Virus record (IMG/VR): IMGVR_UViG_3300025853_000252
Location: 1 to 38,176 of that record
Source: a virus
DNA: 38,176 bases
Reading direction: 5' to 3' (one strand)
The notes under the pieces are model-generated. The model did no database searches. It saw only the letters and a program-made list of their open reading frames with translations, and had not been told where the DNA came from. Positions 1,397-13,479 of this stretch are shown here, one piece after another; position 1 is the stretch's first letter, and each line of letters begins with the position of its first letter. The position numbers and the translations under genes were made by a program.

Positions 1397-1460
1397 TTGA
1401 CAATGCCTCTCAATAATATATGAGAGGTATTCTCAAATATTAGAATTAGCTAGTATTTGA
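1397..1460 (+). promoter_or_regulatory. Promoter with two inverted repeats upstream of the amidoligase operon
   Basis: TTGACA at 1397-1402 with TATGAG at 1419-1424 (16-bp spacer) forms a possible promoter. An inverted repeat (AATGCCTCTCA / TGAGAGGTATT, one mismatch, 8-bp centre, about 1402-1431) overlaps the spacer and -10. A second (TCAAATATTAG 1433-1443 / CTAGTATTTGA 1450-1460, one mismatch, 6-bp loop) lies between it and the start codon at 1486. The first has operator geometry; the second could be an operator or an mRNA hairpin. Confidence 0.5.
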
Positions 1461-1485: not shown

Positions 1486-2685
1486 ATGACATTACTTGAA
1501 TTACTTAGATCACATTACGCATGGACTAACGACGAAATTTTAGACGTTATTCAAAATAGAAATATGCCAATGCGTGATTATGATAATTGTATTGACTTTG
1601 TTAAACAAATCCAAATGGGTGCATTTAGGATTCATAGACGTAGAAGTCATTCAGTTATGGCAACTGATCTCAAGCACAACAATAATCTATGGCATTGTGA
1701 TGATTGCGAAATTATTGAACATTTTGATGACTTGAGTTCTGTAAATCATGGAGATTATTCTGTTTGTAATAGTTGCCTAGATGATAATTATTATTATTCT
1801 GAAAGCCACGATACTTACAGACATAATGATGATTATGATGAGTACGAGGAGGAAGATTATCAACAAGACAATGGCACATACAATTATGATACCAATGTCT
1901 TGGATTATGTATCGCACCAAGAACTCGAACATGAACGTAACCACAAAAACTTGCAATACTATGGCATTGAACTTGAAGTTGAACGTAGAAAAGATTGTCC
2001 ATATGATATTGCAGACAGTATTAATGGTATGTTTGATGATTTTGCTATCTGTAAAAATGACGGCTCACTCGACAATGGCTTTGAGATTGTGACAGCACCA
2101 GCCACTTATGGCTTTCACAAAGATCGTTGGGAAGATTTTTTCAACAGTAAATTGTGCCAAGAAAATCTCAAGGGTTGGAATACTGATACAGCAGGACTTC
2201 ACATTCACATTGGTAGAAAAACATTGCGACCAACAGACATTGGTAAAATTCTAGTGTTTATCAATGATGACACCAATGAAAATTTTATCAATGGTATCGC
2301 AGGTCGCTCATCTCAACAATGGGCAAAGCGATCACCGAAAAAAGTATCTGATGTGTTGCGACCTTCTGGTGAAAAGTATGAGGCTGTCAATACAAATCAT
2401 TATCATACTATTGAACTTCGTATATTCAGAAGTAATATTACAAGACACGGTTTTTATCGTGTCCTTGAGTTTACCGATGCTCTTGTAAACTTTGTCAAGC
2501 TAGGAACTACTCTAGCAAATACAACACTTCATTACAAAGCATTTTGTCATTTTGTGTCCAAACCAGAATGGCGATCACAATATCCTAACTTACTTGCATG
2601 GCTTATTCGCAAGGGGTATGTGAAGGATATGCAACCAAGTCGTAACGTTGTTGTTACTGACTTACTTGAAACAGCTACTAACTGA
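1486..2685 (+). CDS. Amidoligase-family protein with N-terminal zinc-binding module
   Basis: Predicted COOH-NH2 ligase of the amidoligase family (glutamine-synthetase-like fold), which uses ATP to join an amine to a carboxylate on a peptide or small molecule. Visible family motifs: YGIELEVE (159-166), NDGSLDNGFEIVTAP (191-205), GLHIHIGR (237-244) and TIELRIFR (308-315). These carry the Glu and His residues expected for metal/ATP binding. An N-terminal C-x2-C...C-x2-C set (Cys71, 74, 94, 97) suggests a zinc ribbon, followed by an acidic Tyr/Asp-rich linker (about 98-140). ATG is chosen with AAAGAGGTG upstream. A glutamine amidotransferase follows 12 bp later and a gamma-glutamylcyclotransferase about 2.8 kb downstream. 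Substrate unknown. Confidence 0.85.
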   Translation: MTLLELLRSHYAWTNDEILDVIQNRNMPMRDYDNCIDFVKQIQMGAFRIHRRRSHSVMATDLKHNNNLWHCDDCEIIEHFDDLSSVNHGDYSVCNSCLDDNYYYSESHDTYRHNDDYDEYEEEDYQQDNGTYNYDTNVLDYVSHQELEHERNHKNLQYYGIELEVERRKDCPYDIADSINGMFDDFAICKNDGSLDNGFEIVTAPATYGFHKDRWEDFFNSKLCQENLKGWNTDTAGLHIHIGRKTLRPTDIGKILVFINDDTNENFINGIAGRSSQQWAKRSPKKVSDVLRPSGEKYEAVNTNHYHTIELRIFRSNITRHGFYRVLEFTDALVNFVKLGTTLANTTLHYKAFCHFVSKPEWRSQYPNLLAWLIRKGYVKDMQPSRNVVVTDLLETATN

Positions 2686-2697
2686 AAGGGGTAGATT

Positions 2698-3624
2698 ATG
2701 TGCTTAATTATAGCAACCGAAAATCCAAAACAACTATCATCAGCTTTATTGGAAACAGCTTATGAAAATAATTCTGACGGTTTTGGTGTGATGTTTATCA
2801 ATAAGGGTAAACTTCATACACACAAAATTGTACCAAAAACATTTGCAGACATCGAAAAGATGTGGTCTAAATATCAAGACCTTGAAACCCCAATGGGTAT
2901 TCACTTTCGATTTGCAACCAATGGCGATACAAACAAATCAATGTCACATCCATTCCAAGTGCTATCCAAAGCTAAAGGAGATGACAGAGATATGTGGGTA
3001 ATGCACAATGGCCCTCAGTTGCCAACACCTATGATTGATGACAACAAATCTGACACACATCAGTTTGTCAAATGGGTGTTGCGACCACAACTATCAGCCA
3101 ATCCAAAACTATTGCACAACGCCGAGTGGCAATCCATGATTGAAGAACTGATTGGTACAGACAAACTTTTATTTCTTGACGGCAAGACTAAAGAGTTTGT
3201 TATCTTCAATGAAGATCAAGGTAAACACATGGATAATATTGGGTGGCTATCCAATACATATTCCATACAACCTTCGTACAGTTCCACGACACGTACCAAA
3301 TATTGGAATGACAAAACTAATGAGATCGAAGATCGATCTCACAAGTGGACTTATGATGATGAGTATTGGTCTTATGGTCACTACTCTGGTAGGAATTATT
3401 ACAATACTACTAAGACACCTGTAAGTGTGCAAGAGCCAAAAACTAATACGCAACTTGCACTACCTTTGTCGGAAGATGAAACCGATGAAACCATGTGGAA
3501 TGGCAAGACTCTCTTATGGGAAGATGTTGTTACCTTAGATAAAGATGAAATCATATCGTTATGTGAAGAAAATCCTGTTGGTATGGGTGTTCTAATCAGC
3601 GAAGAATTTGTGGGGAATAGATAA
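2698..3624 (+). CDS. Class II glutamine amidotransferase (Ntn hydrolase)
   Basis: Predicted to hydrolyse glutamine and pass on ammonia, or to act as a related amidohydrolase. Cys2 directly after Met1 is the expected N-terminal nucleophile (MCLIIA). NSDGFGV (25-31), the GxHxRxATxG-like segment GIHFRFATNGDTNKSMSHPF (67-86) and MHNG (102-105) match the glutaminase core of GATase II enzymes. After about residue 200 the sequence is Tyr/Thr/Asp-rich and unrecognised. No synthase domain is fused, so a partner is likely; the amidoligase 12 bp upstream is the obvious candidate. Its start follows AAGGGG and its stop overlaps the next gene (TAATG). Confidence 0.85.
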   Translation: MCLIIATENPKQLSSALLETAYENNSDGFGVMFINKGKLHTHKIVPKTFADIEKMWSKYQDLETPMGIHFRFATNGDTNKSMSHPFQVLSKAKGDDRDMWVMHNGPQLPTPMIDDNKSDTHQFVKWVLRPQLSANPKLLHNAEWQSMIEELIGTDKLLFLDGKTKEFVIFNEDQGKHMDNIGWLSNTYSIQPSYSSTTRTKYWNDKTNEIEDRSHKWTYDDEYWSYGHYSGRNYYNTTKTPVSVQEPKTNTQLALPLSEDETDETMWNGKTLLWEDVVTLDKDEIISLCEENPVGMGVLISEEFVGNR

Positions 3625-4316
3625 TGACGAACTACTTTAAACCAACTGTTGATACTGACTACAACCAAACAATAGTCTTTGGTGTGTCAACCTCTAATCG
3701 TAAAAAAGATTTCGGTCTTGTCAAGGCTTTAGGTTATAGATTTAACCGAGATACAAAACTTGAAATCGTATGGGCAAACATCCAAAAGATTAATGGGTTT
3801 CCACCCTTTGTTCGATTGAAGAATGTACAATTTGGATATGTGCCTAGCGGCAAATCCAGTACTGATATTGTATGGGTAAATGATAAACGTTATATTCCTG
3901 TACGCGAAACACAGTACATTTGTTATCGAGGTGTGCGTATCCGAAAAGCAGAGTACGATACGTTACATAGACCAGACCAAAAGGAATGGACAACTGTCGA
4001 AAGACAAATAAGACGTGACGAAACGTTGCAATTATCTTTATCTTCATTAGTGAAGAAGTGGAAAGATACTGGAATCTGGGAGCAGATTGGAACAAAGACC
4101 AAGACAAGTGAATATTTGTCAGTTCTTACCCCACAAGAATTTCTATCACATAAAAGTTCTGGGCCGTTAACGCGAGTCGCACAATCCATTGCAGATTTAA
4201 GGGGGCATTTCGTAATACCAATGAAAGCCTTAGCAGTGCAACTAGCCAATACTTATGGTGGACTTTCAATACAGCAGTTGTTCTACGAAAACCAACCACG
4301 TTACGTTACCGAGTAA
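3624..4316 (+). CDS. Hypothetical protein in the amidoligase operon, 230 aa
   Basis: Family not recognised. Soluble, no signal peptide or Cys motifs, mixed charge with a basic middle (about 95-145). Its ATG overlaps the stop of the amidotransferase (TAATG), so the two are translationally coupled and probably functionally linked; it could be a substrate, carrier or accessory factor of the amidoligase system, but that is inference from position only. Its last codons overlap the first repeat of the origin-like 11-bp array (from 4308), and it contains one GGGGGCA word (4201-4207). Confidence 0.75.
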   Translation: MTNYFKPTVDTDYNQTIVFGVSTSNRKKDFGLVKALGYRFNRDTKLEIVWANIQKINGFPPFVRLKNVQFGYVPSGKSSTDIVWVNDKRYIPVRETQYICYRGVRIRKAEYDTLHRPDQKEWTTVERQIRRDETLQLSLSSLVKKWKDTGIWEQIGTKTKTSEYLSVLTPQEFLSHKSSGPLTRVAQSIADLRGHFVIPMKALAVQLANTYGGLSIQQLFYENQPRYVTE

Positions 4317-4501
4317 CACCGAAAGAACACCGAAAGAATACCGAGCGTACCTGTTTTCCTGTTAGGGGGGCAGGTATGTATTATTATATAATAAAAATAA
4401 TAATAAATTTTAAATCGTTAATAGGGGTTTCGCATACCCCCCATACCCCAAAAGTGGGTACGTTCGGTGTCCTATCGGTGTCATATCGGTATTATTCGAT
4501 T
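4308..4501. repeat. Mirrored array of 11-bp repeats around an AT-rich core; candidate replication origin
   Basis: Left arm: ACCGA-N6 units start at 4308, 4318, 4329 and 4340 (steps of 10, 11 and 11 bp). Right arm: units ending in TCGGT occupy 4458-4468, 4469-4479 and 4480-4490, with a degenerate fourth (TCGAT) at 4491-4501. The innermost units, ACCGAGCGTAC and GTACGTTCGGT, are reverse complements with one mismatch. Between the arms lie GGGGGGCA (4365-4372), an AT-only-like stretch (about 4377-4415) and CATACCCC twice at 10-bp spacing (4433-4449). Helically phased repeats flanking an easily melted core are the classic form of an initiator-binding origin or of a cooperative operator. Confidence 0.7.
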
Positions 4502-4527
4502 GACAAATAAGGAGATTATGATATGAT
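4500..4527 (+). promoter_or_regulatory. Putative promoter abutting the repeat array
   Basis: TTGACA (4500-4505), 16-bp spacer, TATGAT (4522-4527). The -35 starts inside the last degenerate repeat unit, so a protein bound to the array would touch RNA polymerase. However, the -10 overlaps the start codon of the mini-gene at 4523, so it would serve genes further down unless that start is wrong. Confidence 0.4.
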
Positions 4528-4615
4528 GACTTTAACTTTAATAACTTTTATATGCGGTATGGCGTGTGGCTTTATTGCATTTGGAACTTATACCTTTGTG
4601 AAGGAGGGCAGATGA
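4523..4615 (+). CDS. Small single-span membrane protein, 30 aa
   Basis: ATG at 4523 (a second in-frame ATG follows) with AAGGAG eight bases upstream. The product is one hydrophobic segment (LTLITFICGMACGFIAF region) with a short KEGR tail, so a membrane mini-protein. Its end overlaps the next two alternative mini-ORFs. Too short for homology; called from ribosome binding site, hydrophobicity and tight packing. Confidence 0.55.
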   Translation: MMTLTLITFICGMACGFIAFGTYTFVKEGR

Positions 4616-4616
4616 A

Positions 4617-4691
4617 ATGGTTGACACTACAGTTCTTTATACTGTTATTTTTATTATCGGTTTATTCATCGTCTGGCATATAAACAGATGA
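4617..4691 (+). CDS. Small single-span membrane protein, 24 aa
   Basis: ATG at 4617 lies nine bases after AGGAGG, and its stop overlaps the next start (ATGA at 4688). The product has a short polar N-terminus, one membrane span (VLYTVIFIIGLFIVW) and a basic end. An overlapping frame from the ATG at 4612 (stop 4681-4683, 23 aa, also hydrophobic) is possible but sits only four bases from the same ribosome binding site and is not coupled to the next gene, so I prefer this frame. Confidence 0.5.
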   Translation: MVDTTVLYTVIFIIGLFIVWHINR

Positions 4692-5194
4692 TTATCGGAA
4701 AGTATATACCTGACAACGCATTGCAAGTGCGATACATACATCCATACTACGATACAGATGAAGATGGTTATCGTTACATGGCTAATGAAGATGAAGCGAC
4801 CGATGTGTGGCAGCTTATCATGGATGTAAACAGAACAAGCAAACCTTTGTACTACAGACGACGCGTATCTGAATACGCAAGAGATGATGTGCGACGTTGG
4901 AACAGATCAATCAATGACGCCAACCGAAACACAACTGACTTTCAAGATTGGTATCATGTGCGTGTCAAGAAGGTTGGCAGACGTGTGTTGATTGTTCATG
5001 ATCTAGCATACTGGATGAAAGTATATGCAAGATACAAGAACACAGTGCCGCGAAACCTAAATGTATTAAACGCACCAAGACTAACAACAAGCAATCGCAA
5101 TCGTAATGTGTCCGCACATATTGACGAGGCTTGGCAAGCTCTAGAAGAATCATGGGAAATGGAAAGGAGAAGGGCAGAGAATGACGAACGTTAA
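4688..5194 (+). CDS. Hypothetical protein, 168 aa
   Basis: Family not recognised. Soluble, rich in Arg, Asn, Tyr and Trp; the C-terminus is charged and probably helical (SWEMERRRAENDER). No catalytic motif is evident. The start overlaps the stop of the upstream membrane mini-gene (ATGA) and its end overlaps the next gene by 14 bases, so it is an integral part of the operon leading to the gamma-glutamylcyclotransferase. Confidence 0.7.
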   Translation: MIIGKYIPDNALQVRYIHPYYDTDEDGYRYMANEDEATDVWQLIMDVNRTSKPLYYRRRVSEYARDDVRRWNRSINDANRNTTDFQDWYHVRVKKVGRRVLIVHDLAYWMKVYARYKNTVPRNLNVLNAPRLTTSNRNRNVSAHIDEAWQALEESWEMERRRAENDER

Positions 5195-5462
5195 TATAAA
5201 TAAAAAAGACTTAAACATTTTAGAGATAGAATGGATTGACGCAGTGTCGGATGACAACTCATGGCAAGACATAACTGAATTGCAAAAACAAAAGCTAAGA
5301 CCCGTCACAAGTGTCGGATATTTATTGAAAGAAGATAGCAAATCTACCATTATTGTGTCATCTTTTGATGAAGAAAGTCAATGTGGTGGTGGGGGTGTGG
5401 TTATTCCTACCAACTGTATAATAAAAAAGACAATACTAAAAGGACAAATTGATGTCGAATGA
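5181..5462 (+). CDS. Hypothetical protein, 93 aa
   Basis: Family not firmly recognised; the pattern of short strands around ILEIEWIDAV, a WQD motif and a VGYLLKEDS segment resembles small beta-rich phage proteins of unknown role. Starts inside the previous gene and is preceded by AAAGGAGAAGGG, a good ribosome binding site. Its last codons overlap the ATG (5452) of the gamma-glutamylcyclotransferase, whose ribosome binding site lies within this gene, so expression of the two is coupled. Confidence 0.7.
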   Translation: MTNVNINKKDLNILEIEWIDAVSDDNSWQDITELQKQKLRPVTSVGYLLKEDSKSTIIVSSFDEESQCGGGGVVIPTNCIIKKTILKGQIDVE

Positions 5463-5868
5463 TTATAATTGGAGAACTAATCTATTCGTCTATGGTACAC
5501 TAAAGAAAGGGGGCAGACTTCACAGTGTGCTTGGCAACTCGGCGGAGTTTGTAGGACAATATGTCACAGCAGATTCTAGATATGATTTGTTTAGTTACGC
5601 TAAGAGTTTTCCTATCATGGTAGCCAGAGAGAATGGATACAAAGTAAGAGGAGAGGTGTGGTCTGTTACACCAGAAACAATGGACAGAGTTAATGCAATC
5701 GAGAGTGGCTCGCATTACTATCCATTTCAGATAGATGTGATGAATGAACACACAAAAGAATATGAAATCGGTTCGGCTATGACATTTTTATTTCCAGGCA
5801 ACAAGCACAAACTTATGCCTGTGTCAGATATCAATGAGGTCGACGGAGTAAAGGAGTGGGTATGTTAA
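5452..5868 (+). CDS. Gamma-glutamylcyclotransferase-like protein (GGCT/AIG2 fold)
   Basis: GGCT-fold enzymes release 5-oxoproline from gamma-glutamyl amines or peptides. Seen here: the hallmark substrate-binding motif FVYGTLKKG (residues 12-20), a conserved beta-barrel pattern (GEVWSVTPETMDRVNAIE) and the likely general acid/base Glu84 followed by a YY pair. At 138 aa it has the usual single-domain length. I start at ATG 5452, seven bases after AAGGA, rather than at the TTG three bases earlier. It lies in the same transcription unit as the amidoligase and glutamine amidotransferase, suggesting they act on the same gamma-glutamyl or isopeptide bond. Its stop overlaps the start of a membrane mini-gene. 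Confidence 0.85.
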   Translation: MSNDYNWRTNLFVYGTLKKGGRLHSVLGNSAEFVGQYVTADSRYDLFSYAKSFPIMVARENGYKVRGEVWSVTPETMDRVNAIESGSHYYPFQIDVMNEHTKEYEIGSAMTFLFPGNKHKLMPVSDINEVDGVKEWVC

Positions 5869-6029
5869 ATGTAATCGCAAGTGTCTTGGTAATATTAACC
5901 TTGACAGCTATACCAACAATCAGTATAGTAGGATTCATTACTGATGAACAATACAGAAATCCATTTGTATTGTTTTTAATAATAATGTTTATTTACATAG
6001 GAGTAAAAGCATGGATGAAACCAAGTTAA
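5862..6029 (+). CDS. Small two-span membrane protein, 55 aa
   Basis: ATG at 5862 overlaps the end of the GGCT gene and lies six bases after AAAGGAG. Two clear hydrophobic spans (about residues 4-26 and 34-50) are joined by a short polar loop (TDEQYRN), ending KAWMKPS. A two-span mini-protein next to other membrane mini-genes could be a holin/antiholin or an envelope modulator; nothing specific supports either. A near-consensus promoter lies inside it. Confidence 0.65.
   Translation: MLNVIASVLVILTLTAIPTISIVGFITDEQYRNPFVLFLIIMFIYIGVKAWMKPS
5901..5929 (+). promoter_or_regulatory. Sigma70-type promoter
   Basis: TTGACA (5901-5906), exactly 17 bp, TATAGT (5924-5929): eleven of twelve consensus bases at ideal spacing. 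It lies within the two-span membrane gene and would drive the genes from 6011 onward. Confidence 0.6.
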
Positions 6030-10340: not shown

Positions 10341-11417
10341 ATGGGTGAGTATGCAGTAAATAAAAACGTAGCATCGCAACTTACTGAGGGGGCAAGGATT
10401 GCGATAGTCATGGACTACCCGACCGTGACTGAAGTACGATTGAACAAGATGCTTGCCGGGGATTATATTCTTGGCAAAGTTTGTAAACTAGCAGGGATAA
10501 AGCTAGAAGATTGCATGCTCACCCACGTCTTTCAAAGACGACCGGCACAGGAAAACTTACAAAACTTTTTTCACAAGAGGAGTGAATACAAGGCTTTGTG
10601 CAAAGGTACAGAGTGGCGAACACCCTATCCGTCCTCGACGCTAGGGTTTCTCAAACAGGAGGCGCAACCACATCTGGAGAGGCTGTACAAGGAGATCAAT
10701 GATATTAAACCTAATGTTATATTAGCACTGGGGGCAGTATCATTGTGGGCATTCACAGGGTATGATAAGATTGGAACTTATAGAGGAGCGCTCATCTCCT
10801 CTAACACCTCGCACATCAATGATGATATAAAAATAGTTCCCTCTTATGCCCTGTCGAGTGTCGCTAGAAATTACGCATTGAGATCTATCATGTATTCAGA
10901 TTTCAAAAAAGCATTACAAGAATCAGAAACAACAGACATAGTAAATATAGAAAGAGAACTCTGGATCGAACCGAGTATAAACGACTTAGATAAATTTAAA
11001 GAAGACTTCATAAAGAAGGATAACGCAAAACAACCTTTGTCATTTGACATTGAAACAGCAGGCGGGCGAATAACTTGTATTGGGTTTGCCCCCTCTCCGA
11101 CTCATGCCATTGTAGTTCCATTCACGTACGGATACTGGAAGAATGATGATGAAACTAAAGCATGGGACTGGGTTCGAGATTTACTAGAAGATAAACAGAT
11201 TGTAAAGGTGGCACAGAATCAATCATATGATGTGTCATGGTTAAAGTATAAACAAAACATAGATGTAAAGGGTATTGTACATGATACGATGCATGCTCAA
11301 CATTCTTTACAACCAGAAATGGAAAAAGGTTTAGGCTTCTTAGGCTCCATATACACTAACGAGGGTGCATGGAAAACTCTAGCCAAGTTTTCAGATAGCA
11401 CGAAAGCCGATGAATAG
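10341..11417 (+). CDS. polA: DNA polymerase A, N-terminal piece: UDG-like domain plus exonuclease motifs I and II
   Basis: Residues 1-195 resemble the uracil-DNA-glycosylase fold found at the N-terminus of SPO1-like phage polymerases (DYPTVTEVRLNKMLAG, LGKVCKLAG, a strand ending LALG, then RGAL). The catalytic HPS expected near 168-172 is replaced by SYALS, so glycosylase activity is doubtful. Residues 230-358 are the first part of the 3'-5' proofreading exonuclease: Exo I SFDIET (Asp236, Glu238) and Exo II NQSYD (Asn293, Asp297). The protein stops before Exo III, which is encoded in the gene starting at 11950. A complete exonuclease needs both products, so they must assemble or be joined. 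No clear ribosome binding site precedes the ATG. Confidence 0.85.
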   Translation: MGEYAVNKNVASQLTEGARIAIVMDYPTVTEVRLNKMLAGDYILGKVCKLAGIKLEDCMLTHVFQRRPAQENLQNFFHKRSEYKALCKGTEWRTPYPSSTLGFLKQEAQPHLERLYKEINDIKPNVILALGAVSLWAFTGYDKIGTYRGALISSNTSHINDDIKIVPSYALSSVARNYALRSIMYSDFKKALQESETTDIVNIERELWIEPSINDLDKFKEDFIKKDNAKQPLSFDIETAGGRITCIGFAPSPTHAIVVPFTYGYWKNDDETKAWDWVRDLLEDKQIVKVAQNQSYDVSWLKYKQNIDVKGIVHDTMHAQHSLQPEMEKGLGFLGSIYTNEGAWKTLAKFSDSTKADE

Positions 11418-11770: not shown

Positions 11771-11969
11771 AAAAGATAATCATGAAAACATCGCAGGTTT
11801 ATGGTCAGCATATTTAGATACTAAAGTTTCAGCACACGATGTTTCCATCTTAATGTTACTGTTAAAGGTAGCAAGATTGAAGTCTGGTCAACCTTCCAAA
11901 GATACATATGTAGACATGGTAGGGTATTCAGCAATAGCGGGGGAACTGAGTGATAAAAGTAAGCAATAA
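11691..11969 (+). CDS. DUF6378-like protein between polymerase halves, 92 aa
   Basis: The pattern REKEYGNKKDNHENIAGLWSAYL ... DVSILMLLLKVARLKSG ... DTYVDMVGYSAIAGEL matches, from memory, a small helical family widespread in phages (DUF6378). The spaced Asp/Glu/His residues (KDNHENI, DxxGY) resemble all-alpha NTP pyrophosphohydrolase relatives (MazG-like), so a nucleotide-cleaning role is possible but unproven. ATG at 11691 follows GGAGA at about 7 bases. It overlaps the upstream gene by 80 bases and the polymerase C-piece by 20. Confidence 0.7.
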   Translation: MVINIEENLRQALKILKGPREKEYGNKKDNHENIAGLWSAYLDTKVSAHDVSILMLLLKVARLKSGQPSKDTYVDMVGYSAIAGELSDKSKQ

Positions 11970-13479
11970 TAATTTAGATTTAAAACCATACAACGACGAG
12001 CAGATCAACTGGATATACTGTGCATTAGATTGTACGTTGACACAAGAGATTTGGTCTAAGATATCAGAAGAACTTGATGAGACAACAAAAGGTACGTATG
12101 AGTTTGAACTAAAAAGTCTTAAGCCTGCAATGGCTATGACGTTACGCGGTTTAAAAGTAGATGAAGATAAAGTCAAGGCAATAAAAAAACCTCTTAAAGA
12201 AAAGAGATTACGTCTTGAAAGAATGTTGCATTTGTTTTCACAAGCGGTATCTGGTAAAGATTTAAATCACAACAGCCCAGTGCAGTTGAAGAAAATTTTA
12301 TATGAAGATTTAAATTTACCACCAGTTGTTTCTTATGCTAAAGGTAAACAAAAGATATCAACCAATAGAGATGCTTTAGAATCTTTATCGGATTCTTATC
12401 CAAGAGCCAGACCTTTTTGCAGAACAATACTTGCACTGCGTGACATTGATAAAAACTTAGGAGTGCTTGCGTCAAAGCGTGACCCTGATGGTAGAATAAG
12501 ATGTTCTTACAATGTAGCGGGTACAGAGACAGGCAGGTGGTCATCAAGAGAATCACCATGGCGTACTGGTACAAACTTACAAAACATAACAAAAGATTTA
12601 CGTGAAGTATTTATACCAGATACAGGTAAGCAAATGTTTTATGCAGACTTAGAACAAGCAGAGTCACGTGCCGTTGCATACTTGGCTGCGGATGAAAACT
12701 ATATCAACGTGTGTGAAAGTACTGACTTGCATACTGAAGTTGTTAAAATGGTATGGCCTAACATGGGTTGGACAAACGATCCAAAACAAGATAGAGCTAT
12801 GGCAGATCGTAATTATTATTTACATCACAGTTACCGTGACATATGTAAACGAGCAGGACATGGAACGAACTATGGTGTGTCGCCACACTCACTAGCAAGA
12901 CAGATAAAGATCAAAGTGTCACAGGCTACACGATTTCAGTTGCTTTATTTCGGCGGTGTGATATCATCAGTTAGTTTAGAAAGATGGCACAAACAAGATC
13001 CAATGGGAGGCTACCAAGAATTGTTAGATATGGGAGAAAAGATTGGCAAAGATACTCTCAAGATTAAGGGGGCATTTCCCGGCATACGTGTGTGGCATAA
13101 CACGATACAACAAGAATTAATTGAGAAGGGTAGCTTGACAACACCTATGGGTAGGCGTAGACATTTTTGGGATAGACTAAAAGATGCGTCAACCTTGCGT
13201 GCGGCGATTGCATTTGTACCACAGTCAACAATAGGTGACTTGCTAAACTTAGGTTTGTGTCGAGTGTATGACGAACTGCAAGAAGCAGGTGTAGAAATAT
13301 TAGGTCAAGTACACGATGCGATACTAGGGCAATGTGATAAGGATAAAGTAAATGATCTTATGCCACAAGTTCTTGATAGAATGCACAATCCATTGATGGT
13401 CAATGGACGCAAAATGTTAATACCTTCTTCCGTAGAGGTGGGAGATAACTGGAAGGATTTAAAAACATGGACGATATAA
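11950..13479 (+). CDS. polA: DNA polymerase A, C-terminal piece: exonuclease motif III plus polymerase domain
   Basis: GTG start at 11950. Residues 14-30 contain Exo III (Tyr23-x3-Asp27, IYCALDC), completing the exonuclease begun in the gene at 10341. Polymerase motif A is FYADLEQAESR, with the catalytic Asp. Motif B is RDICKRAGHGTNYG: the Arg and Lys of RxxxK are kept, and the position of E. coli Pol I Phe762 holds His. Motif C is QVHDAI, with catalytic Asp but Ala in place of the usual Glu. About 509 aa is right for an exo tail plus polymerase domain. The protein alone lacks Exo I and II and cannot proofread. The next gene overlaps its end. Confidence 0.9.
   Translation: MIKVSNNNLDLKPYNDEQINWIYCALDCTLTQEIWSKISEELDETTKGTYEFELKSLKPAMAMTLRGLKVDEDKVKAIKKPLKEKRLRLERMLHLFSQAVSGKDLNHNSPVQLKKILYEDLNLPPVVSYAKGKQKISTNRDALESLSDSYPRARPFCRTILALRDIDKNLGVLASKRDPDGRIRCSYNVAGTETGRWSSRESPWRTGTNLQNITKDLREVFIPDTGKQMFYADLEQAESRAVAYLAADENYINVCESTDLHTEVVKMVWPNMGWTNDPKQDRAMADRNYYLHHSYRDICKRAGHGTNYGVSPHSLARQIKIKVSQATRFQLLYFGGVISSVSLERWHKQDPMGGYQELLDMGEKIGKDTLKIKGAFPGIRVWHNTIQQELIEKGSLTTPMGRRRHFWDRLKDASTLRAAIAFVPQSTIGDLLNLGLCRVYDELQEAGVEILGQVHDAILGQCDKDKVNDLMPQVLDRMHNPLMVNGRKMLIPSSVEVGDNWKDLKTWTI

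Follow-up and report, generated by a model that had tools for sequence, protein, structure and literature searches.

In this study we describe a small group of phage genes for amide and gamma-glutamyl chemistry, encoding an amidoligase, a class II glutamine amidotransferase (GATase) and a gamma-glutamyl(amine) cyclotransferase (GGCT), within the IMG/VR record IMGVR_UViG_3300025853_000252. The analyzed stretch (hereafter the window) is this whole linear viral record of 38 kb (38,176 nucleotides), a fragment of the genome of a marine virus of bacteria, a tailed phage. On sequence comparison, the core of the group is the amidoligase–GATase pair, conserved as a near-invariant tandem, and the GGCT is an accessory to it, since the distribution of the GGCT differs from that of the tandem. 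The kind of system is already known, and the window holds a slimmed-down variant of it. We read it, with slightly better than even confidence, as a glutamine-fed amide-bond module for which a cell-wall peptide or precursor would be the most likely substrate. The main features are the following:

1486..2685, + strand: zinc-ribbon amidoligase, a glutamine-synthetase-like carboxylate-amine ligase of 399 amino acids (aa), assigned by motifs, PHROG and fold
1696..1776, + strand: zinc ribbon of the amidoligase, Cys71-x2-Cys74 ... Cys94-x2-Cys97, all four Cys invariant
2698..3624, + strand: class II GATase, 308 aa, Cys2 nucleophile, assigned by profile match and invariant site residues
5452..5868, + strand: GGCT, 138 aa, YGTL and catalytic Glu84, assigned by Pfam GGACT and structure profiles

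An earlier note, made from the letters alone, had placed the three enzymes at these positions on the + strand, and their placement and identities were both sustained. The four motifs cited for the amidoligase are present (YGIELEVE at residues 159-166, NDGSLDNGFEIVTAP at 191-205, GLHIHIGR at 237-244, and TIELRIFR at 308-315), and across 37 relatives from viral contigs the residues G160, E162, E164, D192, S194, G198, E200, P205, G237, H239, R274, E310, and R312 were invariant. The GxExE, DGS...GxE, GxHxH, and ExR motifs of the Amidoligase_2 superfamily were likewise conserved with little or no variation in 37-41 sequences. The proposed zinc module on the ligase also stood, with C71, C74, C94, and C97 conserved without exception in the same 37 relatives. 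Aligned alone with Pfam Amidoligase_2 (PF12224), the window protein reached 18.5 bits against a cut-off of 22, and the family emerged through alignments: every sequence of a seven-member core alignment built from diverged phage relatives (7/7) matched Amidoligase_2, the best at 1.9e-12. Further matches were to PHROG 16683 (1.3e-23) and to PHROG 2443 (amidoligase). A match of the profile to RSC8 (0.012) was too weak and was not used.

The AlphaFold model of the amidoligase exhibited a mean pLDDT of 83, mostly above 90 in the catalytic core. Foldseek related it with probability 1.0 to glutamine synthetase and YbdK, PafA, Dop, and GmaS being among the matches, and the GCL fold was also found among the structural matches; VIA-align superposed the model on YbdK with Z 11.7 and an rmsd (root-mean-square deviation) of 3.9 over 208 residues. 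The match spans residues 150-378 only, and the zinc-ribbon half lies outside the matched range. The sequence profile found no convincing relative in the PDB, and only the fold comparison did so; the model predicts the glutamine synthetase/YbdK/GCL fold.

PafA and Dop attach Pup to proteins and detach it, and their appearance among the fold matches bears on an explanation based on protein tagging, in which the amidoligase would put an amide or gamma-glutamyl tag on a host protein captured through its zinc ribbon, a tag that the GGCT would remove. The invariance of the ribbon in the 37 aligned amidoligases and its presence on a GATase–GGCT fusion of phage ctfjg026 (see below) are consistent with such a role, as is the activity of GGACT enzymes on gamma-glutamyl-lysine isopeptides. 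Nevertheless, the GATase partner suggests ammonia rather than a protein lysine as the amine, no tag protein was recognized, and most relatives have no GGCT, so that we consider tagging unlikely. Quite improbable, too, is a reversible scheme involving all three enzymes, in which the amidoligase would mark a host protein or a nucleic-acid-bound factor, drawn in through the zinc ribbon, with an amide or gamma-glutamyl group in early infection and the GGCT would erase the mark.

The GATase produced only a weak match to Pfam as a single sequence (13.4 bits). A profile of its 23-member family reached GlmS at 1.5e-7 in an alignment that covers the HxR-AThG, HP, and HNG motifs, and also matched PurF structures. 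The nucleophile C2 that the earlier note had named was invariant, together with R71, T74, H84-P85, H103-N104-G105, and D119-T120. By these alignments the protein is a class II glutamine amidotransferase and a predicted glutaminase. A downstream open reading frame (ORF) in locus L007 was rejected as a GATase, its W06 match being disregarded.

The GGCT alone of the three surpassed the Pfam cut-off unaided, matching GGACT (AIG2-like, PF06094) at 9.2e-15 and 55.7 bits (cut-off 22.8), and its profile matched structures of gamma-glutamylamine cyclotransferase (A2LD1), YkqA, and YtfP. The expected YGxL (Y14, G15, L17) and E84 were invariant in 19 sequences (numbering from the ATG at 5452; an alternative TTG start at 5449 is less likely). 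In locus L034 (7592-7952) the GGCT frame is split into two partial ORFs, through either real loss or a sequencing error. The butirosin enzymes BtrJ and BtrG set a precedent for gamma-glutamyl protection, and the GGACT fold is common to the window GGCT and YkqA, in line with a small-molecule pathway in which the pair would amidate a metabolite or cofactor and the GGCT would strip a gamma-glutamyl protecting group. Amidoligases have indeed been predicted in metabolite pathways (Iyer 2009, as cited in PMC10580990). Since neither a carrier protein nor further biosynthetic genes were seen nearby in the window, and the module sits among replication genes, we hold this explanation to be decidedly unlikely.

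The best evidence that GGCT and GATase share a pathway comes from fusion proteins, and the functional link is credible because two phages join both enzymes on one chain. In phage C75C1 (L016, 5001-5894) they form a single 298-aa protein, preceded by an Amidoligase_2 gene, and phage ctfjg026 (L096, 6001-7215) encodes a 405-aa fusion with a C-terminal CxxC...CxxC zinc ribbon. These fusions, 41% identical to each other, may have arisen from a single event.

Catalytic residues were not lost in the alignments of any of the three enzymes. Nei-Gojobori dN/dS values between the window and relatives, which are rough for several of the more distant pairs given the saturation of silent sites, were 0.08-0.27 for the amidoligase, 0.03-0.15 for the GATase, 0.08-0.23 for the GGCT, and 0.11-0.26 for p230, the 230-aa protein encoded next to the GATase. 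By this measure all four proteins are maintained under purifying selection.

We next consider co-occurrence across phages. A profile scan of viral contigs with a 4-member amidoligase alignment retrieved 80 loci, and clustering of the amidoligases at 70% identity, with named phages added, gave 50 clusters; queries with the single GATase, p230, and amidoligase sequences returned near-identical contigs only. An adjacent GATase was detected by script in 39 of the 50 clusters, and MW202733, missed because its ORF had been extended upstream, is the 40th. The two genes overlap or lie within 30 bp of each other in 67 of the 78 gaps measured, and wherever an amidoligase with paired N-terminal CxxC motifs is complete on its contig, a GATase adjoins or overlaps it. 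The functional grouping of amidoligase and GATase is therefore strongly supported by this tandem of about 40 in 50 clusters.

The GGCT follows a different pattern. Seven of eight marine-clade records tested whole contain it, on the same strand and some 10-12 kb from the pair in L054, L056, L057, and L058. Outside this clade it occurs in 2 of 22 records with a diverged amidoligase–GATase, and it was not found in MEP401/402, Marvin, MW202733, a Microcoleus phage, or a Clostridioides phage. Both this scarcity and the distance invite the explanation that the amidoligase–GATase pair is a real module and the GGCT an unrelated marine-clade neighbor, serving for instance glutathione or gamma-glutamyl salvage, the more so as the marine-clade GGCT follows another small gene (p93) behind a conserved element and a promoter-like site. 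The two GATase–GGCT fusions are difficult to reconcile with mere proximity, however; the GGCT also belongs to the independent phiEco32-like cassettes of CW02, GAP52, and Melvirus, and the marine clade keeps it even when relocated. We accordingly find an unrelated neighbor possible, if doubtful. The view of the trio as a functional set, advanced in the earlier note, thus holds firmly for amidoligase and GATase in the co-occurrence survey, and the inclusion of the GGCT is moderately supported by its marine-clade conservation and the two fusions.

The earlier note had further assigned the three enzymes to one transcription unit. A single unit is doubtful and was not established, because a conserved element and a promoter-like site separate the GATase and p230 from the GGCT:

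1397..1424, + strand: candidate sigma70-like promoter ahead of the amidoligase, TTGACA-N16-TATGAG, a consensus match only
4308..4500, + strand: conserved structured element in which inverted arrays of phased YCGA half-sites flank an AT-rich core with internal hairpins, identified by folding z-score and conservation
4500..4527, + strand: sigma70-like promoter candidate, TTGACA-N16-TATGAT, a consensus match whose -10 overlaps the start of a 30-aa ORF

The element lies between p230 and two mini-genes, and all marine-clade loci that extend across this position have it there. Its predicted folding energy is -80 kcal/mol for 251 nt (z -6.2), and on each side its arms carry as many as four YCGA half-sites, 10 or 11 bases apart and inverted around the AT-rich core. 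Compensating changes were observed in 17 of 79 predicted pairs, in one sub-lineage (e.g., CGAGGG/CCCTCG to CGACCG/CGGTCG). The near-10.5-base phasing favors an array of DNA-bound protein, as at an origin or a centromere-like site, and RNA is favored by the G-U pairs and by the compensation in the inner stems; the element is a candidate for either a replication origin/partition site of the phage or a structured RNA. A search of Rfam with 4308-4500 returned no family, only weak matches far below gathering. The element may be a more novel feature than the enzyme set itself. A weak copy is also present in the distant relative L058 (10620-11719), downstream of the amidoligase–GATase pair and just before an ATP-grasp gene, an arrangement which suggests that the ATP-grasp partner was lost or gained at the position of the element.

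TTGACA-N16-TATGAT is the sole such match in the window (0.08 expected), and its TTGAC is conserved in all relatives. It remains a candidate promoter only, because in the window its -10 and the beginning of a mini-gene with its own AAGGAG ribosome site overlap. The candidate at 1397..1424 is kept in eight aligned relatives, with TATGAT instead of TATGAG.

In the glutamine-fed module that we favor, expression would take place from the non-virion (early/replication-side) strand. The GATase would hydrolyze glutamine at Cys2 and pass ammonia to the adjacent zinc-ribbon amidoligase, which would activate a carboxylate with ATP through acyl-phosphate chemistry, as in glutamine synthetase, and so convert a carboxyl group of a host substrate, which the zinc ribbon might partly recruit, into a primary amide or an amide link. 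The GGCT would free gamma-glutamyl groups as 5-oxoproline, either after the ligase step or in the opposite direction, and the altered wall could hinder rival phages or their lytic enzymes. That the target is a cell-wall peptide or precursor is a leading guess, drawn by analogy from the phiEco32/RIO-1/LUZ24 cassette and from enzymes known to amidate the wall.

Several observations weigh against this interpretation. With 20 of the 22 diverged amidoligase–GATase records lacking it, the GGCT is dispensable for the core reaction; the marine-clade copy might be a gene in its own right, and a separate transcription start ahead of its unit is possible. The window is also devoid of the second ligase and the ATP-grasp protein of the proposed wall-modification cassettes, and a zinc ribbon would suit a protein or nucleic-acid substrate equally well as a wall precursor.

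The remaining small genes of the region are distributed as follows:

3624..4316, + strand: p230, a fast-evolving 230-aa protein overlapping the GATase stop codon (ORF with marine-clade relatives)
4523..4615, + strand: mini membrane protein, 30 aa, frame and AAGGAG ribosome site conserved
4612..4683, + strand: mini membrane protein, 23 aa, conserved, its start overlapping the 30-aa stop
4688..5194, + strand: p168, a protein conserved in the marine clade
5181..5462, + strand: p93, a small protein directly upstream of the GGCT and overlapping its start (PHROG 25889)
5856..6029, + strand: 57-aa membrane protein overlapping the GGCT end, kept in most marine-clade loci

The suggestion that p230 is an obligate partner of the enzymes fared poorly. 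Its marine-clade relatives are 19-40% identical, making it the most diverged protein of the region (near 40% identity where the GATase has 74%), and it was not found in L041-L046 and L049-L052, several of which have the same gene order. No family match was obtained, nor any BFVD match at E<=0.001 or PDB match with VIA-align, the model being of moderate confidence (pLDDT 69.6). Of the membrane mini-proteins, those of 30 and 23 aa, which lie in another frame or start later than the listed 43-aa ORF, are conserved, and that ORF is out of frame and probably spurious. The two mini-genes (4523-4683) possess strong ribosome sites and fall below the 40-aa limit of ORF callers. Adjacency of p93 and GGCT was seen in the marine-clade loci examined.

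On the + strand, small genes are followed by the amidoligase cassette and then by replication genes encoding a PD-(D/E)XK nuclease, an AAA ATPase, an exonuclease/UDG-like protein, a family A polymerase, DUF3987, and the two subunits of ribonucleotide reductase. Between about 23.8 kb and the right end, the - strand encodes large proteins resembling virion genes, as assigned from layout. The family A polymerase is split, with exonuclease and UDG-like domains at 10341-11417, the polymerase domain at 11950-13476, and two small ORFs between; its nearest named counterpart is that of Caulobacter phage Kuura (36%). DNA base modification was set aside, as no 7-deazaguanine or base-hypermodification family appeared among the replication-region proteins scanned in this fragment.

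The earlier note rightly tied these genes to comparative genomics of amidoligases, and its view that their roles in phages are largely open holds for the substrate: none was found reported for phage amidoligase/GATase/GGCT sets in the literature searched. The three-enzyme cassette and the wall proposal were, however, already published. Phages of the phiEco32/RIO-1/LUZ24 type bear a "peptidoglycan modification cassette" with all three enzymes, for which wall modification has been proposed and superinfection prevention suggested as a role (PMC5498523, PMC3890496); these later papers cite Iyer 2009 and Hardies 2013 for it. The window resembles the phiEco32/RIO-1/PSA-HP1/LUZ24/CW02 cassette in combining an amidoligase, a class II GATase, and an AIG2-type GGCT in the DNA-metabolism region of podovirus-like phages. 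CW02, GAP52, and Melvirus carry a GATase, a COOH-NH2 ligase, an amidoligase, a RimK-like ATP-grasp protein, and a GGCT, whereas the window lineage is without the COOH-NH2_lig (PF14395) and ATP-grasp partners: PF14395 had no match in the window record or in five marine-clade records (all fragments) and matched in those three phages, and a RimK-like ATP-grasp ORF was found in them and in the distant L058, with no match in the window fragment or near marine relatives. In contrast to the ligases of CW02 (gp9), GAP52, Melvirus, and RHph_N3_13, that of the window has an N-terminal zinc ribbon, and its tandem partner is a compact GATase.

Amidoligase–GATase pairs in the Methylophilales phages MEP401/402 and mycobacteriophage Marvin, discussed as of unknown function (PMC10580990), share the tandem and the N-terminal CxxC motifs; their genomes differ in having no GGCT, and the proteins are 25-30% identical to those of the window. 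In C75C1 and ctfjg026, an amidoligase-like gene also precedes a GATase with attached GGCT, but GATase and GGCT form one ORF and the zinc ribbon of ctfjg026 is at the end of the fusion. AsnB/LtsA enzymes perform wall-precursor amidation fed by glutamine with a ligase fold different from that of the window. MurT/GatD (PMC3267633) similarly uses glutamine to amidate a wall-precursor carboxyl group, with another ligase fold and a class I GATase.

Amidoligase, GATase, and GGCT genes recur in phages of many hosts, and the minimal version described here narrows the question to a two-gene core and an optional third, for which the natural GATase–GGCT fusions offer compact test constructs. Should the product be found, it would define a novel phage chemistry directed at the host wall or at host proteins. 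Because the PF14395 ligase and the ATP-grasp protein were not found in this fragment, we do not file the window set as a member of the phiEco32-type cassette; we see in it, by analogy, a pared-down zinc-ribbon variant with a plausibly similar mode of action.

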